Virus record (IMG/VR): IMGVR_UViG_3300022939_000017
Coordinates: 1-64,000 of that record
Source: a virus
Length of the DNA stretch: 64,000 nucleotides
Strand: one strand, 5' to 3'
The position numbers and the translations under genes are program-made. Below the pieces are notes generated by a model. That model saw only the letters and a program-made list of their open reading frames with translations, ran no database searches and was not told where the DNA came from. This document shows positions 5,472-63,276 of the stretch, piece by piece; the stretch's first letter is position 1, and every line of letters starts with the position of its first letter.

Positions 5472-5481
5472 TATAAATATG
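5472..5481 (-). promoter_or_regulatory. Class II (late-type) promoter before the dioxygenase operon
   Basis: Minus strand CATATTTATA, 21 nt before the ATG at 5450. No TTTG lies 20 nt upstream. Same core as the promoters of the virion genes. Confidence 0.5.
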
Positions 5482-5495
5482 CCTGCAAAAAATTA

Positions 5496-8012
5496 TTAAA
5501 AACTAAAAAACTTTTCCGCAGTTCTTTGCTCACTTACAACATCTCCCCACCCAATAGCATCGAAGAAATCTTGTAATTTGCCTTTTAACTCTCTTTCAAA
5601 GATTTTTGAATGGTCAATATAAGTTGATATGAAATTTTCTATTTCTGGTGGGTCATTATAACCTGTGAAGGCCAGACCATCCAATCCAAGTGGATTATCT
5701 TTAAGGTAAACCCATTTTACTTTATCACCATTTTTCATTGGTTCGTATTTGAATGGTGCATTAAAATGTTTTAAACAATCGTTGTAAGATATAGCTGCCT
5801 TAACATGAGCGGGTGTACCTTTTCCAAACTGAAATAATTGTCTTTTACCCTTTGGTAGATACTTTGATAAGTTTTTAACTGCTGAATTTTTAGCAACTTC
5901 ATCAATAGGTCTATTTATCATTTTCTTTTTGAAATCTACTACATAATCTGAAATCTCATCTTCTGATTTACCTTTTAGAATATCAATTAAAACCGTTCCC
6001 ATACACTCTTGGAATGCTTTAGGGAAAGATGACCTTTTAACATCTAATCCTTTTACATCAAGTTTATCAACAGGTACACCATTATCTGAAATAATCCATT
6101 GTGCATATCTTTTCTTTGCAATCCACAATCCAGCCTTTGCAACATATTCTTTCTTAATTTCTAATCTATGTTTATCTTTATCAACATTGAAAATCTTTTG
6201 TGAAAGTATATCATAGAAGTTATTTAGATAATCTTGTACCTCTTCTGCGATTTCATTTACATAACCAGCTATTGTATCTTGGTCATTATCTCTCCAAGTT
6301 GGGTTTCGTTTATCAAGTAAGGGAGTAGCTGAGAAAAATACAGAATCAGTATCAATGTATATATTAGAGTCAGCATCAGGAGTACCAAGTTCCTTGTTGT
6401 ACTTGATGTTAGCCATATCAGCAGTTGATTTAATAACTGTCTGTCCTGTCGTGGTAACAGCGGTAGCATTATCAACATCATAGAACCGAAAGGCAGGAAG
6501 GCCAAGCACACCATATAAAGAGTTAAGTAAAATTTTCTGAACCAACTGACGTTTGTGGTAAAAAGCGTATTTTTCTTTGTTTCCTGCTTTTCCATATTTT
6601 TTCATTTCATTTTTGTATTCTACCCTCTGTTCGAACCACAAATCAAGAATACCTGGTATACAACCAACCGTATCAGTTCTATAAAGAACTCCATTTGATG
6701 CAACTGAGAACTTACTATCATCTAAATACTTTCGTAGATTTTCTTTAGATATTGAGTTATCTCCGATATAATAAGTATCAACTTCGCCTTTTACGAACTT
6801 TTGAGCATCCCAATCTTGAATCTTACCAATCTTAGATTCTGGTGAGATATTCAAAGTCATAATGATTGAAGGATATAGTGAAGTTAAATCTAAATCATAA
6901 ATCCACTCATACTTACCTACTATTGGCGGTTTTACATAAGCACCAATAAACTTTTCTTCATTGTTATCTCTAATAGCCTGCATTCTTTCTTCTCTATCAG
7001 CAGGTTTATTTGGAGCAACCAACCCTTTTCTTCTAAGATAAGTTAATAATGCACCTTCTAAGTATTTTGATGAATAAACAAAATCTTCATATGTAACATG
7101 GCCTGCATGAGTAATACCTCTACATAAATCAATGAATTCTAATTTCTTATCAAATTCTACAACTAACTCAACATCGACAAGGTTATACTCAATGAACTTT
7201 TCAATATCATCTCTGAATAATTGGTCTAAGTTTCCTTGATATTCAATCTTACCTCTACCCAATTCGATTTGAGCAATAGTATCCAATCGATAGTTTGGTA
7301 GTTCTCCATAATTAAATTTCTTATAAAGAATAATATAATCTAAATAAGATACACCAGCCATAAAAAATCTCTTTCTATAAGGAGACCAGAAACATTGACC
7401 AATTGGTGATAATCTATTTGCCTGTTTCTCACCCAATAATCGTTTGATTCTGTTGTACAACATTGGTGTATCGAAATAATCAATATTCCAGCCAGTTACA
7501 ATAGATGGATTAATCATCTCATATAACTCTAAATATTTCATCAACATATCTCTTTCATCTCTGAAAGGTATAACAATACACTTATCAGTAGTTTTTTCTT
7601 CAAGTATCCCTTCTTTATCCATAACCAAAACCCAATATTGATTGGTTGCAGAATCATGGAGTGCGATAGAAGTAAGTTCATTCTTCGCTTCTTGGGGGTC
7701 TGGTAATCCACTTTCCATTTCACACTCAATATCGTATGTGAGAATTACATGACCAGTAGATGGTTCATCAGAATCAGAATACAAATCAACTAAAGCTCTT
7801 GTAGTTTCTGGTACATCTGATTCAAACAGATTGGGGTCATCTTTTTTAAACTTGTAAATCTTTGTTAACTTATCACCATAAATTGAAGTGTACTCCCCTC
7901 GTTCTGCTGGTTCATATGCATATCGTGTATAAGGAAAACTCATATAACCTCGTTGGTCGTCCCAAACATGCATTAAATTTCTTTCTCGTTGATAATAAGC
8001 GTTTTGATACAT
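5496..8012 (-). CDS. Family-B replicative DNA polymerase (T4 gp43-like)
   Basis: 838 aa, close to T4 gp43 (898 aa). The 3'-5' exonuclease motif Exo I is LTYDIECEM (Asp94, Glu96); Exo II is in VTGWNIDYFD. Polymerase motif A is DLTSLYPSIIM, motif B is KILLNSLYG, and motif C is IYIDTDSVFF with the two catalytic aspartates. It replicates the phage genome, working with the helicase, recombinase and single-strand binding protein encoded at 16.5-21.2 kb. The chain ends without a recognisable clamp-binding peptide, although QRTAEKFFSF at the extreme C terminus could play that part. A class I promoter overlaps the end of the upstream methyltransferase gene and begins 6 nt before the ATG. Confidence 0.97.
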   Translation of the reverse strand: MYQNAYYQRERNLMHVWDDQRGYMSFPYTRYAYEPAERGEYTSIYGDKLTKIYKFKKDDPNLFESDVPETTRALVDLYSDSDEPSTGHVILTYDIECEMESGLPDPQEAKNELTSIALHDSATNQYWVLVMDKEGILEEKTTDKCIVIPFRDERDMLMKYLELYEMINPSIVTGWNIDYFDTPMLYNRIKRLLGEKQANRLSPIGQCFWSPYRKRFFMAGVSYLDYIILYKKFNYGELPNYRLDTIAQIELGRGKIEYQGNLDQLFRDDIEKFIEYNLVDVELVVEFDKKLEFIDLCRGITHAGHVTYEDFVYSSKYLEGALLTYLRRKGLVAPNKPADREERMQAIRDNNEEKFIGAYVKPPIVGKYEWIYDLDLTSLYPSIIMTLNISPESKIGKIQDWDAQKFVKGEVDTYYIGDNSISKENLRKYLDDSKFSVASNGVLYRTDTVGCIPGILDLWFEQRVEYKNEMKKYGKAGNKEKYAFYHKRQLVQKILLNSLYGVLGLPAFRFYDVDNATAVTTTGQTVIKSTADMANIKYNKELGTPDADSNIYIDTDSVFFSATPLLDKRNPTWRDNDQDTIAGYVNEIAEEVQDYLNNFYDILSQKIFNVDKDKHRLEIKKEYVAKAGLWIAKKRYAQWIISDNGVPVDKLDVKGLDVKRSSFPKAFQECMGTVLIDILKGKSEDEISDYVVDFKKKMINRPIDEVAKNSAVKNLSKYLPKGKRQLFQFGKGTPAHVKAAISYNDCLKHFNAPFKYEPMKNGDKVKWVYLKDNPLGLDGLAFTGYNDPPEIENFISTYIDHSKIFERELKGKLQDFFDAIGWGDVVSEQRTAEKFFSF

Positions 8013-8017: not shown

Positions 8018-8049
8018 CAAATATACGAATTATTTTTCAAATATCCAAA
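8018..8049 (-). promoter_or_regulatory. Class I promoter for DNA polymerase B
   Basis: Minus strand TTTG, 20 nt, TATATTTG. The -33 region lies inside the 3' end of the upstream methyltransferase gene (stop at 8030). The ATG at 8012 is only 5 nt past the -7 box, so the transcript would be nearly leaderless. Confidence 0.82.
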
Positions 8050-13647: not shown

Positions 13648-15177
13648 TCACCAAAATTTTTTTGATGATTTGTTAATTTTAACCCTTTTATTTTTTTGTT
13701 TATCATATGGATTATCTTTCTCATATTGAATACGAGCAGTTGCAATCTCCATATATTCTTTTTCTCGTTCTATACCAACAAAGTCAAACCCACCTCTAAC
13801 TGCAGCCTTACCTGTTGAACCACTACCCATAAACGGGTCAAGAGTTGTTCCACCTTTTGGAGTTACTAATCTGATTAAGTATAACATCAAATCAGTTGGT
13901 TTTACAGTTGGGTGGTTATTTTTACTATAAGGATTACGAGTATTTCCTCCTCCCGTTAATGCATTTTCAAAGTTCTGCGATGTTATATGAGATTTTCTCT
14001 TTTCTTCAAACCCATCCAACCCTTCGTTTCTATCAGTTTTAGAAGTTTTTGGACAATAGAAGAAACGAGATGCTCCACCTTCATCACCACCATAGTTTCT
14101 GTCTATTATACCACCACCACCGCCGTTGGCATAACTATTTCCCGTTCCAACACCTCTTTTATGACCTGCATTTAGATTACCACTTTTCAATATACCAGTT
14201 TGTTCATCCAAGATTTTACCAGCTTCTTCATCAAAGATTATGTTTGCAGGAAATCTGCCTTGTTGATACTCCCATTCAAGATTTTCATAACTTTTTACAT
14301 CAGGTGTGTCTTTATTGTTTTCTTTATATACCTGTGAAAATGTATTACCAATATGTCTTTTTTGTGGGATAATTTCAGTTCCTATCCTACTTTCATCTAT
14401 GTTTATTCCACCTGTTCCCCACTCTAATACATTATCAACTACTGTTTTTTCTGAAAGTGGTTTTCTTGCCATTACTATTGGTTCATGTGCGGGTTTAAGA
14501 GCAGTTCCCCAACCTTCCCATTCAGTATTTCCTTTGGTTACTTCGATTTCACCTGGTGTATAATCTCCACCAATGTTTTGCATTACACCAAGATTTGTTT
14601 TTAGTTTTCCTAAAACTTCTCTTTTAGTTTCAATAATTGGATTATTTTCTAAATTTAATATTTCTATAAGTTTATTAAATTGTTCTGGTGTTATACTACC
14701 CCTACCTGTTTCCCAATTAGATACAGTACCTCCATGATTTGTTTTTCCATAAAATTTACCAAGTTCAGCAAGTTGTATAGTAGATAATCCCATTTCTAAT
14801 CGTTTCTTCTTTACGAGTTCAGCAACTTCTTTACCAAGTGAATTTCCACCTTGTTTATCAACTGCTTTACCAATGTTATGTGATTTAGGAAAGCCACTTC
14901 CATATATCCACATGATTTGGTCTCTAATCTCAAATCCCGCATCTTCTATTCTAATCGCCATTCGGTGATAAGTTCTACTACCAGCAAATGATAAAAGATG
15001 ACCACCTGGTTTTAGAACTCTATAACATTGTTCCCAAATCTCTTGTGAAGGAACATCGTAATCCCATTTCTTTCCCATAAAGGATAAACCATATGGAGGG
15101 TCTGTAACTATTGAGTCAATACTATTATCATCTAACTCTTTGAGTTTGTCTATACAATCTCCTAATAATAATTTCAT
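13648..15177 (-). CDS. DNA methyltransferase (beta-type order) with inserted XRE-like HTH
   Basis: 509 aa. TDPPYG (residues 25-30) is catalytic motif IV; near the C terminus TVKPTDLMLYLIRLVTP is followed by DPFMGSGSTGKAA, the AdoMet motif I. Motif IV before motif I is the beta arrangement of DNA amino-methyltransferases, probably N6-adenine or N4-cytosine. Residues about 112-180 hold a segment absent from the tandem paralogue downstream-in-coordinate (15179-16549): KKRLEMGLSTIQLAELGKF and TVSNWETGRGSITPEQFNKL, a clear XRE/Cro-type helix-turn-helix. The start lies 1 nt past the end of the paralogue. The enzyme likely modifies phage DNA; the HTH may add target binding or autoregulation (inference). 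Confidence 0.88.
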   Translation of the reverse strand: MKLLLGDCIDKLKELDDNSIDSIVTDPPYGLSFMGKKWDYDVPSQEIWEQCYRVLKPGGHLLSFAGSRTYHRMAIRIEDAGFEIRDQIMWIYGSGFPKSHNIGKAVDKQGGNSLGKEVAELVKKKRLEMGLSTIQLAELGKFYGKTNHGGTVSNWETGRGSITPEQFNKLIEILNLENNPIIETKREVLGKLKTNLGVMQNIGGDYTPGEIEVTKGNTEWEGWGTALKPAHEPIVMARKPLSEKTVVDNVLEWGTGGINIDESRIGTEIIPQKRHIGNTFSQVYKENNKDTPDVKSYENLEWEYQQGRFPANIIFDEEAGKILDEQTGILKSGNLNAGHKRGVGTGNSYANGGGGGIIDRNYGGDEGGASRFFYCPKTSKTDRNEGLDGFEEKRKSHITSQNFENALTGGGNTRNPYSKNNHPTVKPTDLMLYLIRLVTPKGGTTLDPFMGSGSTGKAAVRGGFDFVGIEREKEYMEIATARIQYEKDNPYDKQKNKRVKINKSSKKFW

Positions 15178-15178: not shown

Positions 15179-16549
15179 TTACCAAAATTTATTTGAGTTT
15201 TTATTTATTTCTATTCTTTCTCCTTTTTCTTCGTTGTAAGGATTATCTTGTTCATATTGGATTCTTGCTTTAGCAATCTCCATATATTCTTTATCCATTT
15301 CTATACCAACGAAATCAAACCCACCTCTAACTGCAGCCTTACCTGTTGAACCACTACCCATAAAAGGGTCAAGTGTTGTTCCACTTTTTGGAGTAACCAT
15401 TCTAATAAGATATAACATCAAATCAGTTGGTTTTACTGTTGGGTGATTGTTTTTCTTCGGTTGAACAGGTTTTCGTTCTGAGCCATCTGGTCTGAACTTA
15501 TTAGTATTCATACCATAGGGTTGTCCATCATCCCTCTTTGGTGCCTCCTTATCCTCAAAATCATCTAATCCTTCATTCCTATCAGTTTTAGAAGTTTTTG
15601 GACAATAAAAGAAACGAGATGCTCCACCACTATCACCATAATATGTTTGTTCTAACTCATTATCAGCAGAACCATATATTCCATTCTTACCCCAACCTTT
15701 ATACTTTCCTGGCATATCACCACTTTTTAGTTCACCAGTTTGTTCATCAAGGATTTTACCAGCTTCTTCATCAAAGATTATGTTTGCAGGAAATCTACCT
15801 TGTGGGTTTATTTGACTTTCTTGATTTGGTATTTTATCAGGTCTTGGATTTCCATTATTGGCAAAGTTAGTTGTATGAACATTTTTATTATCAATACTTC
15901 TATGGTTTGGGTCATTCTCATCAACTCCTATTCTACTTGCATCTATATTTATTCCACCAGTTCCCCATTCTAATACATTATCAACTACTGTTTTTTCACT
16001 CAAAGGTTTTCTGGCCATTACGATTGGTTCGTGTGCAGGTTTTAATGCAGTTCCCCAACCTTCCCATTCACTATTACCTTTTGTTATAGTTTGTGTTCCA
16101 TATCCAAATTGTTTGGTATTATTTCTATTTGCAGGGTCAGCTAAGTAACCAGCACCATTTTCCTTTGCCTTTTGAACATCACCCCTTACTTTTTCACCAA
16201 CTACTTCTCTTTGATTACCAAGTTTTTTATCAACTTGTATTCCTATATTGAGTGATTTTGGAAAACCTGAACCATATATCCACATGATTTGGTCTCTTAT
16301 TTCAAAACCTGCATCCTCAATCCTAACTGCCATTCTATGGTAAGTTCTACTACCAGCAAATGATAAAAGATGACCACCTGGTTTTAGAACCCTATAACAT
16401 TCTTCCCATATTTCTTGTGAGGGAACATCGTAATCCCATTTTTTTCCCATAAAAGATAAACCATAGGGTGGGTCTGTAACAATACTATCTACACTATTGT
16501 CATCAAGTTCTTTCAGTTTATCTATACAATCTCCTAATAATAACTTCAT
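15179..16549 (-). CDS. DNA methyltransferase, tandem paralogue without HTH insert
   Basis: 456 aa from the ATG at 16547-16549 (MKLLLGDCIDKL, the same start as its paralogue). The first 110 residues are almost identical to the 13648-15177 product, including TDPPYG at 25-30, and the last 80 again match, with DPFMGSGSTGKAA. The centre differs: here about 45 residues (KLGNQREVVGEKVRGD...) replace the XRE-like domain. The tandem arrangement points to duplication followed by divergence in the middle, where target recognition is expected. The start overlaps the end of the helicase gene by a short stretch only if the upstream in-frame ATG is used, so the shorter start was chosen. Confidence 0.88.
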   Translation of the reverse strand: MKLLLGDCIDKLKELDDNSVDSIVTDPPYGLSFMGKKWDYDVPSQEIWEECYRVLKPGGHLLSFAGSRTYHRMAVRIEDAGFEIRDQIMWIYGSGFPKSLNIGIQVDKKLGNQREVVGEKVRGDVQKAKENGAGYLADPANRNNTKQFGYGTQTITKGNSEWEGWGTALKPAHEPIVMARKPLSEKTVVDNVLEWGTGGINIDASRIGVDENDPNHRSIDNKNVHTTNFANNGNPRPDKIPNQESQINPQGRFPANIIFDEEAGKILDEQTGELKSGDMPGKYKGWGKNGIYGSADNELEQTYYGDSGGASRFFYCPKTSKTDRNEGLDDFEDKEAPKRDDGQPYGMNTNKFRPDGSERKPVQPKKNNHPTVKPTDLMLYLIRMVTPKSGTTLDPFMGSGSTGKAAVRGGFDFVGIEMDKEYMEIAKARIQYEQDNPYNEEKGERIEINKNSNKFW

Positions 16550-16550
16550 A

Positions 16551-17912: not shown

Positions 17913-17934
17913 TGACTCTTTTTTAAAACTGATA

Positions 17935-17966
17935 CAAATATACGAAAATTATTTGAGAATACCAAA
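17935..17966 (-). promoter_or_regulatory. Class I promoter for the helicase
   Basis: Minus strand TTTG, 20 nt ending ATTTTCG, TATATTTG. The -33 box touches the stop codon of the upstream exonuclease gene (17967). Confidence 0.84.
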
Positions 17967-19249: not shown

Positions 19250-19258
19250 ATTGAACTT

Positions 19259-21259: not shown

Positions 21260-21293
21260 TATAAATATACGAAAATCGAAAAAACCACCGAAA
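21260..21293 (-). promoter_or_regulatory. Hybrid promoter before the ssb-recA cluster
   Basis: Minus strand TTTTCGTATATTTATATATAG: it has the TTCG of class I directly before the class II core TATATTTATA. Twenty nt upstream there is TTTC rather than TTTG. It may be recognised by both the early and the late transcription machinery. Confidence 0.55.
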
Positions 21294-23363: not shown

Positions 23364-23373
23364 TATAAATATA
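23364..23373 (-). promoter_or_regulatory. Class II (late-type) promoter
   Basis: Minus strand TATATTTATA followed by GTAGTA, 31 nt before the ATG at 23332. Confidence 0.6.
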
Positions 23374-25627: not shown

Positions 25628-25637
25628 TATAAATATA
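25628..25637 (-). promoter_or_regulatory. Class II promoter, nearly leaderless
   Basis: Minus strand TATATTTATA, then GTATAGT, then the ATG at 25620. With initiation 5-8 nt after the box, the mRNA would begin at or next to the start codon. Confidence 0.6.
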
Positions 25638-26372: not shown

Positions 26373-26382
26373 TATAAATATT
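26373..26382 (-). promoter_or_regulatory. Class II promoter, nearly leaderless
   Basis: Minus strand AATATTTATA then GTATAG and the ATG at 26366. It also overlaps the stop region of the LamG-like gene (26381). Confidence 0.58.
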
Positions 26383-27583: not shown

Positions 27584-27593
27584 TATAAATATT
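27584..27593 (-). promoter_or_regulatory. Class II promoter
   Basis: Minus strand AATATTTATA followed by GTA, 19 nt before the ATG at 27564; the Shine-Dalgarno lies between. Confidence 0.58.
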
Positions 27594-28232: not shown

Positions 28233-28242
28233 TATAAATATT
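28233..28242 (-). promoter_or_regulatory. Class II promoter for the NUC lipoprotein
   Basis: Minus strand AATATTTATA, 20 nt before the ATG at 28212. Confidence 0.58.
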
Positions 28243-28826: not shown

Positions 28827-28899
28827 AAGTTTTACCCCAATCGGCTTTGACAGGAAATCCAAAATTTTCGAGAACGCATTTAATCTTTTTAATTGTTTC
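28812..28899 (-). repeat. 88-bp direct repeat, copy B: pseudo-fragment of the polymerase-A 3' end
   Basis: Ungapped match to 31423-31510, with roughly 13-15 differences. In the original frame it still encodes ETIKKIKCVLENFGFPVKAD and WGKTYGEI before a stop, against ETIKLVKSVLESYGFPVKAD in the intact gene. It starts just past a class II promoter and ends within the first codons of the dioxygenase gene. Confidence 0.85.
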
Positions 28900-28916: not shown

Positions 28917-28926
28917 TATAAATATA
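28917..28926 (-). promoter_or_regulatory. Class II promoter before copy B and the dioxygenase gene
   Basis: Minus strand TATATTTATA. It overlaps the end of the glycosyltransferase-like gene (28928) by spacing of one base, and the dioxygenase ATG lies 90 nt downstream, past the pseudo-fragment. Confidence 0.6.
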
Positions 28927-46246: not shown

Positions 46247-46256
46247 TATAAATATA
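46247..46256 (-). promoter_or_regulatory. Class II promoter before the 69-aa gene and tape measure
   Basis: Minus strand TATATTTATA followed by GTAGTA, 29 nt before the ATG at 46217 and just past the terminator at 46261-46289. Confidence 0.65.
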
Positions 46257-47280: not shown

Positions 47281-47290
47281 TATAAATATA
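47281..47290 (-). promoter_or_regulatory. Class II promoter
   Basis: Minus strand TATATTTATA, 24 nt before the ATG at 47256. Confidence 0.62.
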
Positions 47291-47893: not shown

Positions 47894-47903
47894 TATAAAT
47901 ATA
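47894..47903 (-). promoter_or_regulatory. Class II promoter for the tail tube
   Basis: Minus strand TATATTTATA then ATAGTA, 26 nt before the ATG at 47867. Confidence 0.68.
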
Positions 47904-47925: not shown

Positions 47926-50298
47926 TTATGCCGAGAACGAAGCTCCTGTTGGTAGAATGTTGAAATCTAACACGATGAATTCAGCAGTTTTCGTTGGTTG
48001 TAAGAAAATCTGTCCAGCCAAGATGTTTCTATCGATTACATCAGGTGTGTTATTAGTTTCATCCATTACTACTCTAAAAGCATAAAGTCCTTGTCTTTGT
48101 TGTATTCCTTCTAAATAAGGGTTAACAGTATTCAAGAATCTACTTCTTGTTTGAGAAGTATTTTGTTCGAATACTAAGTATCTTGAAGTTGAAGCAATAT
48201 ACTTCTTAACTTTAATCATTAATCTTCTAACATTGATTCTATCAAGTGCGGATGCCTTATCTTGTAAAGTTTTTTGTCCAAAAGCAACGATACCTTCTCC
48301 AGGGAACGAAGCGATTGGGTTAACTTTTCCTTCATATAGTGTATCTCTTTCAGCATGTGTTAATCTGTTTAATACAGATACCGCACCTACGATACCACCT
48401 CTATTTAAACCAGCGGGTGCGAACCATTCAGCAGCAACAGCATCGTTAGCAGCATATATTCCAGGCATCAATACTGATGGTGGAACTGCAGTTAATCTGT
48501 TAGTTCTTGAATCGATTGTTTTAACCCATGGGTAGTAAGTTCCAACATAGTTAGAATCTAAGTTACCAGCCTGTTCAACAGCCTGTGAAATAGTATCTGT
48601 TGAAACTTGTCCATTTGCAGAGTTGTAAGTTACACCAACTACATCACCGATGAAGAAAGCATCTTCTCTAGCCTCTACCATATCAACAATCTTATCAAAT
48701 ACATAAGAGTGGTGTCTACGAACAATACCAGGTGCAGTTACTAAGTTGATATCGAAATCATCTGGGTTAGATACTGCGTTGATTGCTCTTACATAAGCAA
48801 CTGAACCAACTGCTGTTGAAGTTGATAAATCAAATCCTTGTGAGTTACCACTACCAAAGTTAGCAGATGAACCAGCAAGTGCCTTTTCAGTAGTTGGTGA
48901 TTCACCATCAAATCCTTCTTGGAATCCAACTACGAATTGTCTTTTATTAACATCAGTTGCATTTGAACCTGTTAATTCAAATCCGAATGAGTATGTTCCA
49001 TTATTGATAGATACTGTTCCATCAAATGCAAACACATCATTTGAACCATATCCTGCAGATACAGGTATTGGTGATAAGAAATGTCCATTATCAACTTTTA
49101 CTAATGTTGATTCTAAATCAATACCACTATACTTAACACCACTTGATGAAGTGTTATCAGCAGAACCAGTTGAGAATACAACCGATGGAGTTATTGAATC
49201 TGAACCTGAGATTGGTGATAGATACTTAGCATGTCCAAATGGTCCTGCCACGATTGGGAACGAACCTTCTGGTTTACATTCTACTCTAATGTGTTTAGAA
49301 CGATTTGTATAATCACCATTTTCTGTTTGTTTTCCATTTGCATCGATAACAAGATTTCTATCACCGATTACTTTTTTAATGTAGTTTGGAGATGCAGGGT
49401 CTAAGTTCAAGTTATTGAATGTTTCTAAGATTACTGGTCTCTTATCTGTATCAGAGTATCCTCTAACTGCGATTGAGAAAGTTGAGTAATCAGTAGAATT
49501 ATTTGAACCTGCCGCCTTTACATTAAATAATGAAATTTTATATTCTTTATTATAGTTTGAACCATCACCTAAAGTATGGAATCTAAATAAATCATGTCTT
49601 TCACCTGAAATCAACTGAGATTTAATCCAAGGAGTTGATGCGTGTTGAATATCGTTTGTGAAAACTTGGTTTCCTAAATCCACTAATACTACTTGTGAAC
49701 CACTTGAAGTGATGTTACCAGATTCGTTAGTTGCTGCATTTTCAAAGTACTTGTATGCATATGCACCTTTAGAACCTCTTGGAGATTCTCCAAATACATC
49801 TGATAAATCATTTCCTGCAGTTGGAAGTACAGATGCTGATACTGATGTATTGTAAGCTGAATCTGAACCACTTAGTTCAATTGAAAAAGCTGATTGAGAT
49901 ATTTGTGAATCAATAGATGCTGTTACACCGGTTGCACTATCCCATAAGTGAGTGGTATTTAAAACTCCTACTAACTTCTCTCCTCCATTAGAACCACTAA
50001 CAACAATTGCTGCCGGTCCAACTTCAGTATATCCACCAGTATTACCAACTCTTACGATAGTAACAGTTCCTGCTTCTCTTAAATAATTTTGTACGGTATA
50101 TCCTGTATAGTAAGTTCCATCAGGTGTACCGAATATTTCTTCAAATTCTGATTGTGTATTGACAACGGTTGGTACGAATGCAGGTCCTTTATGGAAAGGT
50201 CCAATTACGGCTGCTCCGATTTCTCCAATCCCTTGTGCTAAGAAAGAAAGGTCATTTTCTCTCGTAAATACACCAGGTGATACAATTTTTTCTGCCAT
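47926..50298 (-). CDS. Tail sheath protein (gp18-like)
   Basis: 790 aa. MAEKIVSPGVFTRENDLSFL is the classic sheath start; GEIGAAVIGPFHKGPAFVPT and the C-terminal region TSRYLVFEQNTSQTRSRF, NTVNPYLEGIQQRQGLYAFRV, RNILAGQIFLQPTKTAEFIV are the conserved sheath core and handshake strands. The centre (about 150-500) is a long insertion of beta-structured domains that would decorate the outer tail surface; T4 gp18 has 659 aa. Contracts to drive the tube through the envelope. Confidence 0.95.
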   Translation of the reverse strand: MAEKIVSPGVFTRENDLSFLAQGIGEIGAAVIGPFHKGPAFVPTVVNTQSEFEEIFGTPDGTYYTGYTVQNYLREAGTVTIVRVGNTGGYTEVGPAAIVVSGSNGGEKLVGVLNTTHLWDSATGVTASIDSQISQSAFSIELSGSDSAYNTSVSASVLPTAGNDLSDVFGESPRGSKGAYAYKYFENAATNESGNITSSGSQVVLVDLGNQVFTNDIQHASTPWIKSQLISGERHDLFRFHTLGDGSNYNKEYKISLFNVKAAGSNNSTDYSTFSIAVRGYSDTDKRPVILETFNNLNLDPASPNYIKKVIGDRNLVIDANGKQTENGDYTNRSKHIRVECKPEGSFPIVAGPFGHAKYLSPISGSDSITPSVVFSTGSADNTSSSGVKYSGIDLESTLVKVDNGHFLSPIPVSAGYGSNDVFAFDGTVSINNGTYSFGFELTGSNATDVNKRQFVVGFQEGFDGESPTTEKALAGSSANFGSGNSQGFDLSTSTAVGSVAYVRAINAVSNPDDFDINLVTAPGIVRRHHSYVFDKIVDMVEAREDAFFIGDVVGVTYNSANGQVSTDTISQAVEQAGNLDSNYVGTYYPWVKTIDSRTNRLTAVPPSVLMPGIYAANDAVAAEWFAPAGLNRGGIVGAVSVLNRLTHAERDTLYEGKVNPIASFPGEGIVAFGQKTLQDKASALDRINVRRLMIKVKKYIASTSRYLVFEQNTSQTRSRFLNTVNPYLEGIQQRQGLYAFRVVMDETNNTPDVIDRNILAGQIFLQPTKTAEFIVLDFNILPTGASFSA

Positions 50299-50340: not shown

Positions 50341-50350
50341 TATAAATATA
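50341..50350 (-). promoter_or_regulatory. Class II promoter for the sheath
   Basis: Minus strand TATATTTATA, 42 nt before the ATG at 50298; TGTGTAC follows and AGGAG lies further down. Confidence 0.65.
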
Positions 50351-50724: not shown

Positions 50725-50734
50725 TATAAATATA
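50725..50734 (-). promoter_or_regulatory. Class II promoter for the 103-aa gene
   Basis: Minus strand TATATTTATA within a longer TATATATA stretch, 34 nt before the ATG at 50690. Confidence 0.6.
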
Positions 50735-52063: not shown

Positions 52064-53068
52064 TTATTCTCCTAAACTATTATAAATATGTAATAATGAA
52101 TCAATCCAATAATCTTTATCAGAAAATTCATCAATCATATATTCTTTTATGTGTAAAAACCATTTATTTTTTTCTTCATAAGAAGAGTTTACTATCTTAA
52201 TATAAATATCATCAAATTCTTTTTTAGTCGAAGCTCTATAAGGATACTTCAATTCTCTACACCATTCTTTATGAATAATAGGTAATTTACCCCTATCAAC
52301 TGCTTCAAATATACCATATCCAAAAGGTTCTACCGAAAAACATGAATGAGATATTCCCCAATCCATATTATAAAATATATCTTTAAATTCAGAATCATAA
52401 TGATATATTTTTGATTTACTAACATCTACCTTTACTCCATTTTTCCAAATAATTTTAAATTCAGATGAATTTGTAAAAATAAAAGATTCTTTTCTGTCTA
52501 AATAATGTGGATTTTTTCTACCTTCGCATCTTGAAGCAAATCCTAATTTAGTTGATTTACTTAAAAGTTTGTTGTGTTTAAACTCATAGAAATTTTTAAT
52601 GTTTATATTATCATATGGTATTTTATATAATCCAATCCATATATTTGTTTTGGCCCAATCTGATACTTGTTGTTCCCAACTTGAATCAATAAAAGGATGC
52701 CAACCTAATGAAGCATCTGTAAATGTTTGTGATTTTAAAACATGGTCTACCGAATTATGTAATACATTTGAATGAATTTTATCTTTATTATCTTCTATAC
52801 ATCTCATTGGAGTATAATGTCCATGTAATATATTGATTCTTCTTGCACCCCTACATAGTTCTTCAAACTTTTCTATATTTTCACCATGCCAATATGTTTC
52901 AATTGGAAATTGATAATCTTCATGACCTTTGGGTTTGTTTCTATGAATTAAAAGAATTGGTTTTACATCTAATTTAGGTGCAACTAACTTCATCCATAGA
53001 TTTACCCAAGTATCAGTTCCGGCGTTTACCCATGGGCCTCCACCAGTTGTGTAATAAACATCGTACAT
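52064..53068 (-). CDS. GT-B glycosyltransferase
   Basis: 334 aa. N-terminal MYDVYYTTGGGPWVNAGTDT has the glycine-rich loop of GT-B folds; the C-terminal half CFSVEPFGYGIFEAVDRGKLPII carries the E-x(7)-E donor-binding element of GT4-like enzymes. Located among fibre genes, it may glycosylate tail fibres or the host surface (inference). Its stop is 2 nt from the Hint-protein start. Confidence 0.78.
   Translation of the reverse strand: MYDVYYTTGGGPWVNAGTDTWVNLWMKLVAPKLDVKPILLIHRNKPKGHEDYQFPIETYWHGENIEKFEELCRGARRINILHGHYTPMRCIEDNKDKIHSNVLHNSVDHVLKSQTFTDASLGWHPFIDSSWEQQVSDWAKTNIWIGLYKIPYDNINIKNFYEFKHNKLLSKSTKLGFASRCEGRKNPHYLDRKESFIFTNSSEFKIIWKNGVKVDVSKSKIYHYDSEFKDIFYNMDWGISHSCFSVEPFGYGIFEAVDRGKLPIIHKEWCRELKYPYRASTKKEFDDIYIKIVNSSYEEKNKWFLHIKEYMIDEFSDKDYWIDSLLHIYNSLGE
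52081..52090 (-). promoter_or_regulatory. Class II promoter inside the end of the glycosyltransferase gene
   Basis: Minus strand CATATTTATA then ATAGTTTAGGAG, 19 nt before the Hint-protein ATG at 52062. Confidence 0.58.
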
Positions 53069-55412: not shown

Positions 55413-58241
55413 TTATTGTATTTTTGACTTTAATTCGTCAATTTGTTTTTGTTGTTCCTTAATAGCTTCTATCAAGAGACCGGTAAGTTTGGCATAATCT
55501 ACACCTTTAAAACCATTATCTCTATCAGTTACTAATTGTGGAAGAACTTTCTCAACATCTTGTGCAATAACCCCTACATTTGGTAAAGATTGTTGTAATT
55601 CATCTGCATTTTCGTTCCAATTCCAAGTTACACCTTTTAGAGATTGAACTTTTTCTATTGGGTTAGAGATAAGTTCTATATTATCTTTTAATCTTTCATC
55701 TGATGATGCGTATGCTACAACATCACCACCTACATTCAATGCCCCACTAATACCAACACCACCAGTTACTATAAGAGCTCCTGTTGTTTTAGTTGTTGAA
55801 GCGGTTGAGTCAGAAATATTAACTGCTGCTGAGAATGTTTTAGCTCCACTAAATGTTTGTGTTCCACTTAGGTGTGCTGTATTTGATGATAAGTAAGCAT
55901 CTGCAATTGCCGTACCTTGCCAAGTACCTGTTGAGATTGTTCCTAACGTAGTTAAGTTTGTTGAACCAGCCCAAGTTGATACCGCAGTGTTTTCAACATT
56001 TCCTAATCCAATATCTGATTTTGTAAGGTTTCTTGTAGATACACTTGCATTAGCATCTGTAACGTGTCCTAAAGTATCAGTTGTAATATTGAAATCTAAA
56101 TCAGAAATTACAGTTGCTCCTGTCAACGGAGTTGTATCAATATCTATATCATCACCGGCATGAGTAGGGTGAGTATAATTTGAAGTACCCGCGACATCTA
56201 CTCCAATTAAACTTCTAACTTCAGCCGCTGTAATTCCAGTATTTAATGAAGGGGTTGAACCATTTGAAGTAATTGCTGGAACTGAGGTATCAATAGCGTT
56301 CCAAGTAGCGGCTGATGCAATATATGAATCTGCAATTGCCGTACCATTCCATGTACCAGTTGTAATTGTACCTAATGTAGTGATTGAAGTATTACCAGCA
56401 CCTATTACGATTCTTTCTTCAGAACCCGCTAAACCAGCAACCCAATAATCATTTGATTCATCCCAAAGTAAAGCTGAGTTGGTAGAACTTCCTCTTTCGA
56501 TTTCGATACCACCATTTTGTGAAGGAGTTCCTGCCTCATCTGAGTTAAGTACAAGAACATTATCACCAATATTTACGGTATTTGAATTTACAGTTGTTGT
56601 AGTACCATTTACGGTTAAGTTACCTGTAATTGTTACGTTGTTTGAGAATGTTCTATCACCTGCAATTGAATCTGCTAAACCGATAGTTACAGTTCCACCA
56701 CTACCAAGAGTAATTGAATCACCACCATCGATTGAAATTTCATTTGAAGTTCCTGCAAAAGATAATGTAGTGTTACCTTGAACTGCTGTATTTGCAGATG
56801 AACCATAATTAACTGCAATAGTTGGAGTTGAACCTTCTCCTGTGTTTGAACCAATAGTTACACCTGTTCCACTTCCAAGAGTTGCAACATAATTACCACT
56901 TGTTTGTGTTCCTAATGCGATATCACCTGTAATTGAACCAGCCTGAACTTGACTTGAACCTGAAATAGTACCTGATGGTAAGATTGCCTGAACATCACCA
57001 TTTGTTACAGTACCTAAAGTTGTTATATTAGATGAACCTGCCCAAGTAGAAAGAGCAGTATTTTCAACATTTCCTAAACCAACTTGTGATTTTGTTACTG
57101 AGTGTGGGTTGGAGGTTGATGCAATGTGAGAATCAACTGAAGAAGTATAAGTTTCTAATGTATCAAATTTATCATCAGAGGTAGCCCAAACCAAATCATT
57201 AGAACCAGTATAAGTTTCTAAATATGTTAATCTACTATCTTGAATAGATTGTTCTGTTGTTATAGAACCTGTTTCAGTTGAAAGTTGGTCTAATCTACTA
57301 TTTTGAGTTGTATTAGTTGTATCGTTTGATGCAGTATAAGAGTTTAATGAACTTAAAACATCAGTAATCTGAGCCGAACCAGAAACTACACCACCTTTTA
57401 AATTTGCTGATAGTGTATTTGAACTTAAAATTAAATCAACTTGTGATGTATCAGTAATAGATAATGTTGGTTGATATGAAGAAGTTGCTGCTTCAATATT
57501 TGATAATCTCGAATCTTGATTAGTATTTGTTGTATCATTAGATGATGTATAAGAGTTAAATGTATTTTTAAATCCACTAACGTCTATACCATCAACAGTA
57601 CCCGTTACCGCAATTGAACCAGTAACTCCTAAACCATTACCAAATTGTATTGCGTTTCCATCAGATGATAAAATTTTCTTATGTGCTGCTACTTGAACAG
57701 GTGCATCTAACTCAATATTACCATTTCCATTTGAACTAAGAGTGATATCTCCATTTGCAGTTTCTAATGTAATAGTATCATTTCCAGTTTCTAATACTTT
57801 AAACGACTCACCCGCATCAGTTTGAATAGTAAGGTCTGTACCATCTGTTGAAATTACTTGAGTTCCATTTATATAAAGAGAAGCGGAAGAAATATAAACA
57901 TCTCTAAATGGATTTTCTGCTGTTCCAAGGTCAATGTTAGTTGCCGATGGCACCATACTTTTACTTAGTGTTACAGAACTATCACTTTGTGATAATGGGT
58001 TATTGTTGATATCATTAAATTCAACTTGTGATGAAGCACTAAATACTCCATCAAGATTAAATAAATCATCAATTTGTGCAGAGGATGAAACAATACCTGT
58101 TCCACCAAAGGTTAGATTTGAACCTTCACCCTGAAATGACCCACTAAATGAACCACTATAAACACCACCTTCTGGGTATGTTACAGAAGCTCCATCTGCG
58201 AATGTCATTGAACCTGAAATTATGGGACTGTGTATAATCAT
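55413..58241 (-). CDS. Tail fibre with C-terminal endosialidase-type chaperone (peptidase S74)
   Basis: 942 aa. Opens MIIHSPIISGSMTFADGASV. Two copies of a GNLTVNGTTTTVNSNT/IGDNVLVLNSDEA module and KSxIGLGNVENTA repeats (about 390 and 745) run through a beta-helical shaft. Residues about 840-942: YASSDERLKDNIELISNPIE and GVIAQDVEKVLPQLVTDRDN, the intramolecular chaperone that trimerises the fibre and then cuts itself off at the serine before Asp. Helical tail IEAIKEQQKQIDELKSKIQ. Class II promoter upstream. Confidence 0.9.
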   Translation of the reverse strand: MIIHSPIISGSMTFADGASVTYPEGGVYSGSFSGSFQGEGSNLTFGGTGIVSSSAQIDDLFNLDGVFSASSQVEFNDINNNPLSQSDSSVTLSKSMVPSATNIDLGTAENPFRDVYISSASLYINGTQVISTDGTDLTIQTDAGESFKVLETGNDTITLETANGDITLSSNGNGNIELDAPVQVAAHKKILSSDGNAIQFGNGLGVTGSIAVTGTVDGIDVSGFKNTFNSYTSSNDTTNTNQDSRLSNIEAATSSYQPTLSITDTSQVDLILSSNTLSANLKGGVVSGSAQITDVLSSLNSYTASNDTTNTTQNSRLDQLSTETGSITTEQSIQDSRLTYLETYTGSNDLVWATSDDKFDTLETYTSSVDSHIASTSNPHSVTKSQVGLGNVENTALSTWAGSSNITTLGTVTNGDVQAILPSGTISGSSQVQAGSITGDIALGTQTSGNYVATLGSGTGVTIGSNTGEGSTPTIAVNYGSSANTAVQGNTTLSFAGTSNEISIDGGDSITLGSGGTVTIGLADSIAGDRTFSNNVTITGNLTVNGTTTTVNSNTVNIGDNVLVLNSDEAGTPSQNGGIEIERGSSTNSALLWDESNDYWVAGLAGSEERIVIGAGNTSITTLGTITTGTWNGTAIADSYIASAATWNAIDTSVPAITSNGSTPSLNTGITAAEVRSLIGVDVAGTSNYTHPTHAGDDIDIDTTPLTGATVISDLDFNITTDTLGHVTDANASVSTRNLTKSDIGLGNVENTAVSTWAGSTNLTTLGTISTGTWQGTAIADAYLSSNTAHLSGTQTFSGAKTFSAAVNISDSTASTTKTTGALIVTGGVGISGALNVGGDVVAYASSDERLKDNIELISNPIEKVQSLKGVTWNWNENADELQQSLPNVGVIAQDVEKVLPQLVTDRDNGFKGVDYAKLTGLLIEAIKEQQKQIDELKSKIQ

Positions 58242-58264: not shown

Positions 58265-58274
58265 TATAAATATA
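58265..58274 (-). promoter_or_regulatory. Class II promoter for the 942-aa fibre
   Basis: Minus strand TATATTTATA, 23 nt before the ATG at 58241, with AAAAGGAAG between. Confidence 0.62.
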
Positions 58275-58923: not shown

Positions 58924-61900
58924 CTATTCCAATCTATTTTTTAAAGATGTAACTTCTTTTGATAATTCTTTAATTCCTTCTATAAGTAATGATACTATCT
59001 TATCATATTTTACGGCTTTATACCCATTTTCTCTCGTTTGTACCAATTCTGGTAAAATTTCTTCGATTTCTTGAGCAATTACTCCATAATCCTTACCTTT
59101 ATAAATATTTTGTTTTTCTTCATTCCATACAAAACTGTTACCAGAAATTTGGTTTATTTTTTCTAATGGGTTAGAAATTGGTTGAATATTATCTTTTAAT
59201 TCTCTATCTGATGATGCATATGCAACAATATCATCACTTGATTTTATTGAACCACTAAAGAAAGTATCTTGATTTATAAATAATCTACTATTTGAATTAT
59301 CCCAAGTGAATGAAGCATTTGCTCCAGCAATTTCAATACCACCACCATCGGCAGCTGCTGAATTTGATGAACCACTTGCAACGGTTATTAACTTATCTTC
59401 AATTCTTAATTCACTTACTTGGATTTCAGCAGATGTTCCTAATACTTCTAAATTTCCAGTTACAGTTAAGTTACCTGTAAATGAACCTGTTTTAAATGTT
59501 ACATCAGATGTAGTTGAAAGGTTTTGATTTATAGTATCAAGATTTGCTTTATTTGAATGAGTATGAGAATCAGTTTCTAATGAATCTAAACGAGTATCTA
59601 CTGATTCGGAATATTGTGTACCTACAATTAAAGTATTGATTTGGGTTGAACCAGAAACTACACCACCAGAAAGGTTTGCAGAAATACTACCACCATTGAT
59701 AATCATATCAACATTAGAAGTATCACTTGATGCTGAAATTATATTATTTGATATTCCACTTAATTCTGTAAAGTTTACTTGTGAAGAACCTGATACTACA
59801 CCACTTGGTAGTAAAGAAGTTAAATCACCAAAACTTAAAACACCACTACCATTTGTAACAAGTGCTTGTCCATTTGTTCCATCCGATGTTGGGAATTTAT
59901 ATGCGTTGTTGAAAGTAATAGCTCCACCATCATTACCATCAATCTTAAACTGTCCGTTATTACTTGAAGGGTCTGCACCTGTTCCATCGGTATCAACAGC
60001 AACTGAAAACTGTGTTCTAGCAGCATTATTTGTATTATCAAAAGCAAACGCACCACCTACAAGTAGTGATGTACCATTATAGTATTCGTGGTTACTTCTA
60101 AATAGATAATCACCTGATTGTACTGCAGAAGGTGAACCACTTGAACCTCTGTATCTTCTTGTTCTAACATCAGGTGCATCTGAAGTATCGTTATACTGCT
60201 CCATTCTAATTTGAGCAGTTTGTGCACCCTCACCTGTCATGTGAAGTGTAACTTCTGGGTTGGATTGATTGATACCTAAGTATTTATTTACGGTATCTAA
60301 TGCAAGAATATTTGAAGAAGTTACTGAATTTGTTCCTGTTGCAATGATTGTTTCATTAGCGGTAAATCCACCACTTGCTGATACAAATCCTTCTAATTGA
60401 GTTGAACCACTAATAACACCTTCTACATCTAATTTGGTTTTTATTGTCGTATCAATAGATGAAGTAAATGATTCAATTGAATCAATTCTACTATCAAATG
60501 AAGAAGTTGTAGAATGAATATTTGTAATGTTTATATCATTAGATGCAGTATATGCATTAATTGAAGTTAAAACATCAACAATTTGTTCCGAACCACTAAC
60601 TACACTATCTCCATTGATTTCTAAGTATCTTAAATCTAAAGATGAAGTTACTTGGTCTGAACCCGATACTATACCATCAATATTAAATAAATCATCAAAT
60701 TGTGCTGAAGATGAAAGTACTCCATCTGCATCTAATTTTGCTTTAATACCTCCTAAGAAGTGTGTTGAACCTGTTGCCAGTGTAAGTACAACATCTCCCA
60801 CATTACCATAATATCCACTTCCATCTGTTGTACCACTACCATTGTGTGATATACCAGTAATATTTTCCGAATACAGATTGGATGAGTTTATAGATGTGAT
60901 ATCACCCGCACCAGCATCAATCAACGCTTGGTTTACTGCGTAGTTTGTTGGAATTACATTTTGGTCATTATCAATTGAGTTAGATACATTTAAGAATGCT
61001 GCTGTACCTAAAACTCTATATCCTACTGAACCAGCCGAACCACTAACAAGTGCATTTAATTCACCACTTCCTAATTCGGAAAGAGATGAAAGTGATAAAC
61101 CACTAAATGTTGGTGAATCTGATTCTTTTAATCCTAAATCTACGTTTGTATCTGTATCGTTTATACTCGCGGTTAATACACCTTGATGATTTGATACAAA
61201 TGATGAACCTGAAATTACATCATCTCCGTTGATTTCTAAGTATCTTAAATCCAATGATGAGGTTACTTGAGATGAACCACTTACAATTCCATTTCCAACT
61301 ACCTCATACCTTAAATCTAATGATGAGGTTACTTGAGATGAACCGGAAACAGTTCCTTCTGGTAGAAAATCAACTACTTGTTGTGAACTACTTACTAATG
61401 TATGGGTTGAACTTGCTATCTCTTCATATCTTAAATCTAAAGAAGATGTTACCTGGTCTGAACCCGAAATTACATCATCTCCATTGATTTCTAAATATCT
61501 TAAATCAAGTGATTGTGTTACTTGAGATGAACCAGAAATTACCCCACCATATAAATTAGCAGTTATATTGCCATTTGTAATTGTAAAATCAATATTGTTT
61601 GAATCTGTTGAAGATGATACTATATTCGAAGGTATAGATGAGATATCTCCATAAACTATTTGTTCTGAACTACTAACTACGCTATCTCCATTGATTTCTA
61701 AGTATCTTAAATCTAATGATTGTGTTACTTGAGATGAACCGCTAACAATATTACTACCACCAAAATTTATATTTCCATGTTGAATATCTGTTAATTCAGA
61801 ACCATCTCCCTTAAATCCTACCGATGAAGTTACTTTGGCATCTAAAACAAATGAAGTTGTATTATGGTCCCAAGTTATTGATTTATTAGCACCATCAATA

Positions 61901-63240
61901 TAAATACCAGCACCATCAGCGGTTGTTGAATCTGTTGAACCACTTGCTAAAGTAATTAATTTATCTTCGATACTTAATTCTGTTGTAGAAATTTCGGTTG
62001 CAGAACCTAAAACAGTTAAGTTTCCATTTACAATTACATTCCCAGTAAACGAACCTGTATTAAATGTTACAGTTGAAGTTGTTGCTAAATCTTGGTCAAT
62101 TGTATCAAGATTTGCTTTATTTGAGTGTGAGTGTGAAACATCACTTAATAAATCTAATCTACTTTCATGTGATGCAGAAGTTAATTCTAAGTTATCTAAT
62201 CTTCCATCTTGTGAACCACTATCCGATTCTAACTGATTTAATCTATCTTCATATGATGCAGTTAAATTGGTAAGTGTTGTACTTTTTTCTTCTTCTACAT
62301 CTAATCTACTACTTAAAGAACCTGTTTCAGTTTCTATTTGAGATAATCTATCATCATGTGATGCAGAAGTTAGTTCTAAACTTGTTAATCTTCCATCTTG
62401 TGAACCGCTATCAACTTCTAACTGGCCCAATCTATCATCATGTGATTGAGAAGTTAGTTCTAAGTTATCTAAACGATTATCTTGTGAACCAGTATCAGTT
62501 TCAAGTTGTGTTATTCTATCATCGTGTGATTGGGAAGTTAATTCTAAGTTATCTAAACGATTATCTTGTGATGCAGAATCTAATTCTAAGTTTGTTAATC
62601 TTCCATCTTGTACACCTTGTTCATCTTCAATAGAACCTGTTTCAGTTTCTAATTGTGATAATCTATCATCATAAGATGCTGTTAGTGTTTGTAAAACAAC
62701 ACTTTTTGCTTCTTCATCATCCAATCTCAAATCCAATGATGATGTTTCAGATTCTATATTTGTTAATCTATTTTCAACAGATGATGTATAATCGGAAAAA
62801 TCTGTATTTGATGATGATAAAATTCCACTACCTGGTAATTTAATATCTTCAATTGAAGCAGATACAACAAAAAGATTATTGTATCTTTTTGATAATGAAC
62901 CTAAATCATACTCAGCATCGTTATCAGGTATAAGAGAACCACTAAGAGATGAATTTACAATAATTTCATCACTTGCATCTCCTGTTCCTAAAAATATACT
63001 ACCACCAAGAACAATATTACCATCAATTGTTGCATCACCACTTAACTTTAAGTTAGATGCAGTTATATTACCATTTAAAACAATATTACCATCGATTAAT
63101 CTATCTAATGGTAGTAAAGAATAAACAGAAGAACCACTTGCATATTGAATTGAACCTGTTGTGTAATTAAGAAATATTTCACCATCTGTCAATGCTGGTG
63201 ATGCTGAAGTACCTCTTCTTAGTTTTAATATTGCTGCCAT
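58924..63240 (-). CDS. Giant tail fibre with 14-residue coiled-coil repeats and C-terminal S74 chaperone
   Basis: 1438 aa. Residues 1-45 adaptor (MAAILKLRRGTSASPALTDG); about 155-370 a trimeric coiled coil made of 14-residue units of the type SQDxRLxNLELxSx; about 500-720 and 870-910 repeated SGSSQVTSSLDLRYLEINGD beta units; LamG-like or knob region about 990-1150; C terminus from about 1340, YASSDRELKDNIQPISNPLE and GVIAQEIEEILPELVQTREN, the self-cleaving S74 chaperone, with final helix IKELSKEVTSLKNRLE. Likely the main long fibre for host recognition. Confidence 0.92.
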   Translation of the reverse strand: MAAILKLRRGTSASPALTDGEIFLNYTTGSIQYASGSSVYSLLPLDRLIDGNIVLNGNITASNLKLSGDATIDGNIVLGGSIFLGTGDASDEIIVNSSLSGSLIPDNDAEYDLGSLSKRYNNLFVVSASIEDIKLPGSGILSSSNTDFSDYTSSVENRLTNIESETSSLDLRLDDEEAKSVVLQTLTASYDDRLSQLETETGSIEDEQGVQDGRLTNLELDSASQDNRLDNLELTSQSHDDRITQLETDTGSQDNRLDNLELTSQSHDDRLGQLEVDSGSQDGRLTSLELTSASHDDRLSQIETETGSLSSRLDVEEEKSTTLTNLTASYEDRLNQLESDSGSQDGRLDNLELTSASHESRLDLLSDVSHSHSNKANLDTIDQDLATTSTVTFNTGSFTGNVIVNGNLTVLGSATEISTTELSIEDKLITLASGSTDSTTADGAGIYIDGANKSITWDHNTTSFVLDAKVTSSVGFKGDGSELTDIQHGNINFGGSNIVSGSSQVTQSLDLRYLEINGDSVVSSSEQIVYGDISSIPSNIVSSSTDSNNIDFTITNGNITANLYGGVISGSSQVTQSLDLRYLEINGDDVISGSDQVTSSLDLRYEEIASSTHTLVSSSQQVVDFLPEGTVSGSSQVTSSLDLRYEVVGNGIVSGSSQVTSSLDLRYLEINGDDVISGSSFVSNHQGVLTASINDTDTNVDLGLKESDSPTFSGLSLSSLSELGSGELNALVSGSAGSVGYRVLGTAAFLNVSNSIDNDQNVIPTNYAVNQALIDAGAGDITSINSSNLYSENITGISHNGSGTTDGSGYYGNVGDVVLTLATGSTHFLGGIKAKLDADGVLSSSAQFDDLFNIDGIVSGSDQVTSSLDLRYLEINGDSVVSGSEQIVDVLTSINAYTASNDINITNIHSTTSSFDSRIDSIESFTSSIDTTIKTKLDVEGVISGSTQLEGFVSASGGFTANETIIATGTNSVTSSNILALDTVNKYLGINQSNPEVTLHMTGEGAQTAQIRMEQYNDTSDAPDVRTRRYRGSSGSPSAVQSGDYLFRSNHEYYNGTSLLVGGAFAFDNTNNAARTQFSVAVDTDGTGADPSSNNGQFKIDGNDGGAITFNNAYKFPTSDGTNGQALVTNGSGVLSFGDLTSLLPSGVVSGSSQVNFTELSGISNNIISASSDTSNVDMIINGGSISANLSGGVVSGSTQINTLIVGTQYSESVDTRLDSLETDSHTHSNKANLDTINQNLSTTSDVTFKTGSFTGNLTVTGNLEVLGTSAEIQVSELRIEDKLITVASGSSNSAAADGGGIEIAGANASFTWDNSNSRLFINQDTFFSGSIKSSDDIVAYASSDRELKDNIQPISNPLEKINQISGNSFVWNEEKQNIYKGKDYGVIAQEIEEILPELVQTRENGYKAVKYDKIVSLLIEGIKELSKEVTSLKNRLE
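62131..62778 (-). repeat. Tandem 42-bp (14-codon) repeats encoding coiled coil
   Basis: At least ten imperfect units, two heptads each, within the giant fibre gene (residues about 155-370). Unit pattern S-x-D-x-R-L-x-x-L-E-x-x-S-x. Variation is mostly at heptad surface positions. Confidence 0.85.
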
Positions 63241-63266
63241 TTAATTCTGCTTCCTAATTTATTACA

Positions 63267-63276
63267 TATAAATATA
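63267..63276 (-). promoter_or_regulatory. Class II promoter for the giant fibre
   Basis: Minus strand TATATTTATA, 26 nt before the ATG at 63240; TAGGAAG between serves as ribosome site. Confidence 0.65.

Follow-up and report, generated by a model that had tools for sequence, protein, structure and literature searches.

The subject of this analysis is a nine-base box, ATATTTATA with the core TATTTATA, which stands before many genes of a viral contig of 71,415 bases (IMG/VR record IMGVR_UViG_3300022939_000017), whose bases 1–64000 form the window examined here. Our reading, to which we assign a probability of roughly 75%, is that the box serves many T4-like Bacteroidota phages, a large group, as their late promoter, read by a sigma factor of the type of gp118 from Flavobacterium phage vB_FspM_immuto_2-6A (hereafter immuto) and adapted to the Bacteroidota RNA polymerase. 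The box is confined to the coding strand of the contig, is conserved in relatives, consists of a single element and marks one of two gene classes, and relatives of the phage encode a sigma-like protein. A function as late promoter is well supported by these sequence patterns, and the boxed genes are probably late, to judge from the functions of their products.

The mechanism that we propose has two phases. Early and replication genes would use the promoter form of the host (a TTG at -33 and TATATTTG or similar at -7) read by the host primary sigma, and a promoter of that form would drive the run of five immuto genes that ends in gp118, which probably form one operon. The gp118 protein would then bind host RNA polymerase and open promoters at the -10/-7-like box alone, and in this way the polymerase would be turned towards the late genes, those of the virion among them. 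Starts at TATATTTAGG would come first, and late starts, lying 1–6 nucleotides (nt) after [AC]TATTTATA, would appear later.

A conserved box class without a -33 element

All 64 open reading frames (ORFs) of the contig, chosen longest first, lie on the minus strand, the coding strand. A motif count found 18 copies of ATATTTATA in the window, all of them on that strand, whereas 100 dinucleotide shuffles gave a mean of 4.33 copies on both strands and a maximum of 12. In the whole contig the count is 20 copies against 0 on the opposite strand. A control with the reversed motif is uninformative because ATATTTATA is identical when read backwards. Sixteen of the 20 contig sites lie 5–70 nt 5' of an ORF start, a zone that covers 5.9% of positions (P = 9e-17), the sites outside it being those at 66823, 59108, 52209 and 28925. 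No other 9-mer of the 71,415-base contig has as many upstream copies. Among its one-base variants, ATATTTGTA, which is the class I box, is upstream in six of seven cases, and every other variant pooled gives four upstream sites. An accident of composition could be suspected in AT-rich intergenic DNA, since the GC content along the window is 26–34%, and yet this explanation is refuted, and has next to no probability, given the 18 copies where 4.3 are expected, the distribution of 20 to 0 by strand, the rarity of one-base variants upstream and the retention of the box in 73 loci described below.

Many of these features had been proposed in an earlier note on the window, drawn up from the sequence alone. 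The 15 sites that it placed before start codons were recovered, as 15 of the 18 window sites are upstream, with gaps to the ATG that range slightly wider (6–55 nt) than the 6–42 nt it gave. Its leading T, A or C proved to be a mild preference for T (59%) in logos of 68 aligned sites from three genomes, in which all information is confined to the box and no second conserved element is seen around it. The absence of TTTG at -33 also held: a TTG at the class I distance accompanies 2 of 20 class II sites in the window contig, no more than the 15% of random positions, compared with 11 of 16 class I-like sites (some of which fall within genes), and the logos agree. The box is thus a -10-like element lacking a -35 partner, cleanly so in the window contig and less so in immuto (8/28 sites with TTG). 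The description of the box as a class I box whose G has become A is literally correct (ATATTTGTA to ATATTTATA).

The two classes differ in their relation to the Bacteroidota primary-sigma promoter, which has TTG at -33 and TAnnTTTG at -7. The class I motif TTTGG...TTTCGTATATTTGTA has this form. The class II box shares with it the TATATTT part but has A in place of the G, keeps TA after it and, in the window clade, has no -33 element. They also differ in the genes that they precede. According to PHROGs, class II genes encode the tail sheath, tail tube, baseplate hub, two fibre-like proteins, a tail/virion protein, a nuclease, a single-stranded DNA (ssDNA)-binding protein and unknowns, and class I genes encode DNA polymerase, a DnaB-like helicase, an endonuclease, a phosphohydrolase and unknowns. 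The box does precede virion genes, as the earlier note had it, although not exclusively, the nuclease and ssDNA-binding protein genes being among its targets. Another locus, L276, overlaps the contig at its end, and there a class I box also precedes a protein that reads as GroEL from its sequence.

The host of the window phage is likely a member of Bacteroidota, because a DNA search with one 7,901-base stretch, which returned short matches only, had its best matches in immuto and sister isolates (2% of the query at 81%). In form, the window class I promoters match the TAnnTTTG box that has been mapped at -12 to -5 in Flavobacterium psychrophilum (PMC9723704). L276 additionally encodes, at 16569–19277 (+), a 902-residue protein whose start resembles the N-terminus of a SusC-like outer membrane protein in our reading of its sequence; such a protein is unusual for a phage and likewise suggests a host in Bacteroidota.

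Conservation was examined with the tail sheath gene (47926..50298, minus strand) as the query. Of 520 relatives, 80 loci were kept, of which L019, L061, L067 and L083 had no gene start and were left out; a further three of the remaining 76 were dropped from the sheath-box count for having fewer than 85 nt upstream. A box occupies the same place as that of the window (50341..50349) in all 73 loci with enough upstream sequence, as ATATTTATA in 43 and as ATACTTATA in 30, and the G of the host form is found at that position in none of them (0/73). Elsewhere in the 76 of 80 loci, 342 boxes lie on the strand of the sheath gene and one on the opposite strand. A genome-wide shift to ATACTTATA in lineages with a C in the sheath box was considered and rejected, as the other boxes in those 31 loci are ATATTTATA in 142 cases and ATACTTATA in 4. 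A second class of box, without a -33 element, is thus confirmed as real and conserved.

In immuto, 24 of 28 copies of [AC]TATTTATA lie 5–75 nt 5' of annotated starts (a zone of 10.3% of positions), and the genes behind them include those for the sheath, tube, hub, tape measure, large terminase, portal and spike. The box is not equally frequent before early genes, the outcome that the earlier note had named as contrary to its proposal: by the immuto annotation only, the 70 nt in front of a gene contain ATATTTATA in 8 of 81 cases in the virion region, in 0 of 45 in the small-gene region and in 5 of 107 among the other genes, whereas TATATTTAG precedes 0, 16 and 3 genes in these respective groups, and 20 of 21 immuto class I sites have the TTG. 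The same procedure applied to the late region of T4 as a control counted TATAAATA 12 times on the coding strand and twice on the other, with 7 of the 12 upstream of starts; the T4 count of TATTTATA, 2 versus 12, mirrors these sites since the two motifs are reverse complements, and the two form one count.

The gp118 family as candidate reader of the box

A phage sigma-like factor had been suggested as the reader of the box, and a gene for such a protein exists in relatives, namely in immuto (gp118) and in G001, the 123-kb contig of sheath locus L085, whose sheath and tube proteins are 74% and 95% identical to those of the window; none was found on the window contig. The search that led to it used phrog_234, the gp55 PHROG, identified with T4 gp55, and gave one weak match among 12 records, immuto gp118 (E 0.008). 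Its G001 homologue was clear (phmmer 1e-39), and of two scans one yielded 156 relatives and the other at least 600. From 160 sigma loci we picked by hand the 67 sequences of a family alignment and, likewise, a set of 84 for hhalign, where one comparison of the gp118 family with gp55 gave E 1.2e-4 and a probability of 55%. Sigma70_r2 is the Pfam family matched by most members (17/67). The structural model of the 67-sequence family (pLDDT 77.6) has as its best match T4 gp55 (7d7c_F; Z 10.2, rmsd 5.0, 119 of 137 residues aligned), the other fold matches listed are sigma factors going by their titles, and Foldseek gives gp55 a probability of 0.98. The protein is accordingly predicted to comprise a gp55-type sigma region 2 and a C-terminal domain without a recognised fold; the latter may yet be a sigma region 4, although the domain predicted alone (pLDDT 90.2) had no convincing match.

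Seven T4 gp55 residues taken from PMC7892883 (N13, L54 and R57 were left out) were placed on the family through the hhalign alignment and by eye. In T4 gp55, Y97 stacks on the flipped -12 adenine, F86 is a pocket residue, and E70 and D74 contact the clamp (PMC7892883). The equivalents in the family are Tyr in 67 of 67 sequences for Y97, Phe in 65 for F86, Asp in 66 for E70 and Glu or Asp in 66 for D74.

The genomic setting of the gene is consistent with the proposed switch. In immuto, gp118 closes a run of five genes behind a class I box at 76214, and the end of gp118 at 78872 is followed directly by a late box at 78884. In all 19 sigma-bearing contigs compared, which were picked by length among carriers of the gene, [AC]TATTTATA favours the strand of the sigma gene (238 versus 21 summed). 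Support from synteny was dropped after a PHROG scan of the three immuto genes that follow gp118 found no gp46 or gp47 match; phrog_12791 likewise had no match in immuto or G001. The same sigma family occurs in G013 (locus L175), a contig of 287,455 bases and hence of huge-phage size, where late boxes number 35 on one strand and 5 on the other.

A considerable number of results weigh against our reading. At E up to 10 the phrog_234 search also matched in 7 of 14 control genomes, hmmscan of gp118 against that PHROG reached only E 0.5, and hmmscan against PHROGs gave no gp55 match for the G001 homologue. The best E for Sigma70_r2 is just 0.01, with five other Pfam families reaching lower values in single members, and a profile search of PDB sequences returned no sigma factor, only a chitinase at E 0.6 or worse. 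The family model has a pTM of 0.45, the fold tool warns that helical models may reach Z 13 without meaning, and Foldseek has no match at E 0.001, its E for gp55 being 0.98. Three of the compared residues differ, E77 being replaced by Ser in 62 of 67 sequences and H95 by Phe or Tyr, and T99 being Thr in only 33. The comparison of boxes by strand covers sigma-bearing contigs, with T4 as the only genome without the gene. No match to the gp45 clamp domain PF09116 was found in any of seven records, some of which are fragments, and another clamp is possible. In immuto, the small-gene region has two C-variant boxes 5' of genes (59991, 65898) and two copies of ATATTTATA inside annotated genes (74282, 74566), and the 8 of 28 class II sites with a TTG at the class I distance compare with 10% of random positions. 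The box at 74566 lies 4 nt 5' of an ATG that serves as the start in relatives, and the annotated start of the gene concerned, gp126 (NC_055915.1, 74474–74992), is probably too far upstream, as an internal ATG is the recurrent product start. Finally, no sigma gene was found on the 71-kb window contig or in L276, which runs about 10 kb past the contig end. L276 shares the protein of window positions 207–2000 at 100%, and its lack of a sigma gene speaks against one just past the contig end, although the join is inexact, the last 500 contig bases having no letter-for-letter match in L276. The window phage would thus carry its sigma gene outside the sequenced contig.

These weak sequence scores leave room for another explanation, in which the box is a variant -7 element recognised by the host primary sigma itself and a phage activator replaces the -33 contact, much as MotA and AsiA act in T4 middle transcription. 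The single base that separates the box from the class I -7 box of the phage itself would suit it, as would the 8 immuto boxes that keep TTG at -33, the hybrid site of the window at 21260, and the host motifs SM1–3 of F. psychrophilum, which are variations of TAnnTTTG (PMC9723704). However, an activator should have a conserved element of its own and the 68 aligned sites have none, the G of the host form is never seen at the sheath box (0/73), and relatives encode a protein whose predicted fold is gp55-like. We consider this explanation unlikely, albeit the most serious competitor for the identity of the reader. The gp118 family is the best candidate for that role, and gp118 itself probably reads the ATATTTATA box.

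So understood, the system has close parallels to the late promoters of T4, which depend on gp55, gp33 and gp45. Both have a -10-like element alone before virion genes, a reader or candidate reader of the sigma region 2 type, a core with TAT..ATA in the same direction and similar distances from box to start (14–28 nt at seven T4 sites). Unlike T4, the core TATTTATA has a central TT where TATAAATA has AA, the host is probably a member of Bacteroidota, and gp118 has its additional C-terminal domain. In its box it is not a T4 late promoter, nor does it have the form of a host primary-sigma promoter. The T4 box itself is found 4 times on the coding strand of the window contig (3 upstream of starts) and 24 times on the other, the latter being largely the ATATTTATA box read backwards. 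The earlier note called the box the reverse complement of the T4 box, which is true letter by letter but unhelpful, since in the same direction the two cores differ only in their two central bases. Searches of the open-licence part of PubMed Central on Bacteroidota phage late promoters, sigma factors and the box yielded no description of this promoter, which is no proof of absence, and the titles and abstract beginnings there included no late-promoter map for any Bacteroidota phage.

Transcription starts, leaders and translation

Of the 454 distinct sequence contexts of the box, 332 are followed by an ORF start at no more than 70 nt, mostly 13–43 nt after the box. In 22 of the 332, the box is only 3–6 nt before the ATG of an ORF of at least 60 residues. 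Related loci share several of these ORFs, one example being a gene that reads as carbamoyltransferase-like from its sequence. This gene (L107 6762 and similar loci) lies directly 3' of the sigma gene, and in L107 the late box in front of it overlaps the end of the sigma gene. To judge from such near-leaderless genes, transcription may begin only a few nt from the box, which is what the -7 register of the host would predict. Genes with a gap of 3–4 nt favour a host-like register, with TATATTTA at -12 to -5 and a start 2–3 nt after the box, whereas the first base of the box, which varies between A and C in immuto, speaks for a core of TATTTATA and a T4-like register of -13 to -6.

These short gaps also bear on the idea that the box is an element of the mRNA leader with a role in processing, stability or translation. 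Most boxes do lie in leaders that are short, and those of the window clade often have Shine-Dalgarno (SD)-like sequences behind them, as would be fitting for such an element. Nevertheless, the 22 boxes at 3–6 nt from an ATG are too close to it and instead fit near-leaderless transcripts, the box is one base away from the -7 box of the phage, and a hairpin that was seen by eye directly after the sheath box (TGTGTAnnnnTACACA) was not supported, as RNAalifold, run on 32 of the 35 distinct leaders, predicted no pairs. We therefore regard a leader element as very improbable.

The SD-like sequences behind the box were unexpected, as they are unusual for Bacteroidota. In the window contig, GGAG or AGGA occurs in 11 of 16 class II leaders, 0 of 9 class I leaders and 6 of 39 others (Fisher P 0.001 and 0.0002, respectively, for the class II excess), and an SD is present in all 73 sheath leaders. 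Flavobacterium ribosomes hide their anti-SD with the help of bS21, and depletion or mutation of bS21, including mutation of Tyr54, raises translation of SD reporters (PMC9976891). We identified a phage-encoded bS21 in 3 of 32 records (G001, G013 and G015), all three with Arg where F. johnsoniae has Tyr54 when aligned by eye with 7jil_z, and the G001 bS21 gene has a late box and a clear SD. Possibly, then, the late switch has two layers, in which the phage sigma makes SD-bearing late mRNAs and the Arg54 bS21 re-opens the anti-SD, so that late genes are selected at transcription and at translation. This proposal is tentative and on present evidence rather doubtful. The SD contrast in G001 is not significant (10/19 versus 27/78), the window contig has no bS21 match, the G015 bS21 gene has the ATACTTATA variant and a weak SD and that of G013 has neither, and many of the 32 records, 20 of which were picked by length, are fragments. 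In immuto, SD sequences are present in 0 of 13 class II leaders and no bS21 was found.

A related set of phages are the bS21-encoding Bacteroidetes phages of Chen et al. 2022 (PMC9723584), which likewise have predicted Bacteroidota hosts and express bS21 and virion genes together and late. Their bS21 differs in having Tyr54 in 54 of 61 cases and another aromatic residue in 7, in contrast to the Arg of the three found here. Neither 'promoter' nor 'sigma' appears anywhere in the main text of that paper.

Boxed genes of the window and their neighbours

All sites in the window are on the minus strand. Class II boxes in the structural region precede fibre-like genes at 58924–63240 (1438 residues; box 63267..63275) and 55413–58241 (box 58265..58273), a tail/virion protein gene at 50761–52062 (box 52081..52089), an unknown gene at 50379–50690 (box 50725..50733), the tail tube gene at 47376–47867 (box 47894..47902), the baseplate hub gene at 46486–47256 (box 47281..47289) and an unknown gene at 46008–46217 (box 46247..46255). 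Further along, boxes stand before the nuclease gene at 27592–28212 (box 28233..28241) and unknown genes at 27277–27564 (box 27584..27592), 22931–23332 (box 23364..23372) and 4095–5450 (box 5472..5480). Two boxes are very close to a first ATG, 6 nt 5' of that of 26145–26366 (box 26373..26381) and 7 nt 5' of that of 23446–25620 (box 25628..25636), and the transcripts would be near-leaderless if these ATGs are used. The box at 28917..28925 is followed by AAAGGAG, and there is no ATG in the frame of the ORF 28272–28862; the missing ATG between 28862 and 28925 may reflect a non-ATG start, a frameshift or an assembly error. Two copies of ATATTTATA lie within ORFs, at 59100..59108 in 58924–63240 and at 52201..52209 in 52064–53068, and are probably not promoters.

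A hybrid of the two classes, TTTTCGTATATTTATA with the class I prefix TTTTCG, is found at 21260..21268 before the ssDNA-binding protein gene (20392–21204). T4 gene 32 likewise has promoters of several classes. Class I boxes include TATATTTG at 8018..8025, with TTTGG and TTCG, before the DNA polymerase gene (5496–8012), and one at 17935..17942 before the DnaB-like helicase gene (16551–17912).

Several neighbouring genes have features of their own. The tail protein encoded at 50761–52062 appears to include a Hint (intein/hedgehog-type) module, CLTSDSPI...YISHNKG, in our reading of its sequence. The fibre gene pairs 53844–55337/55413–58241 and 58282–58917/58924–63240 each partly match one pair in G001 (102280–102936, 96893–102268), and the two window pairs are possibly a duplicated fibre module. 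Adjacent DNA methyltransferase genes at 13648–15177 and 15179–16570 share their best PHROG, phrog_67.

Marine T4-like viruses of Bacteroidota seem to switch on their virion genes through this box, which would make it a variant of a well-known switch and an example of how a factor of the gp55 type may be adapted to a polymerase that follows another promoter code. The strict nine-base signal lets candidate late genes be spotted in many metagenomic contigs of marine phages, and a widespread unannotated protein, that of immuto gp118, gains a suggested function. In addition, the linked pattern of SD sequences and bS21 makes the purpose of phage bS21 directly testable.

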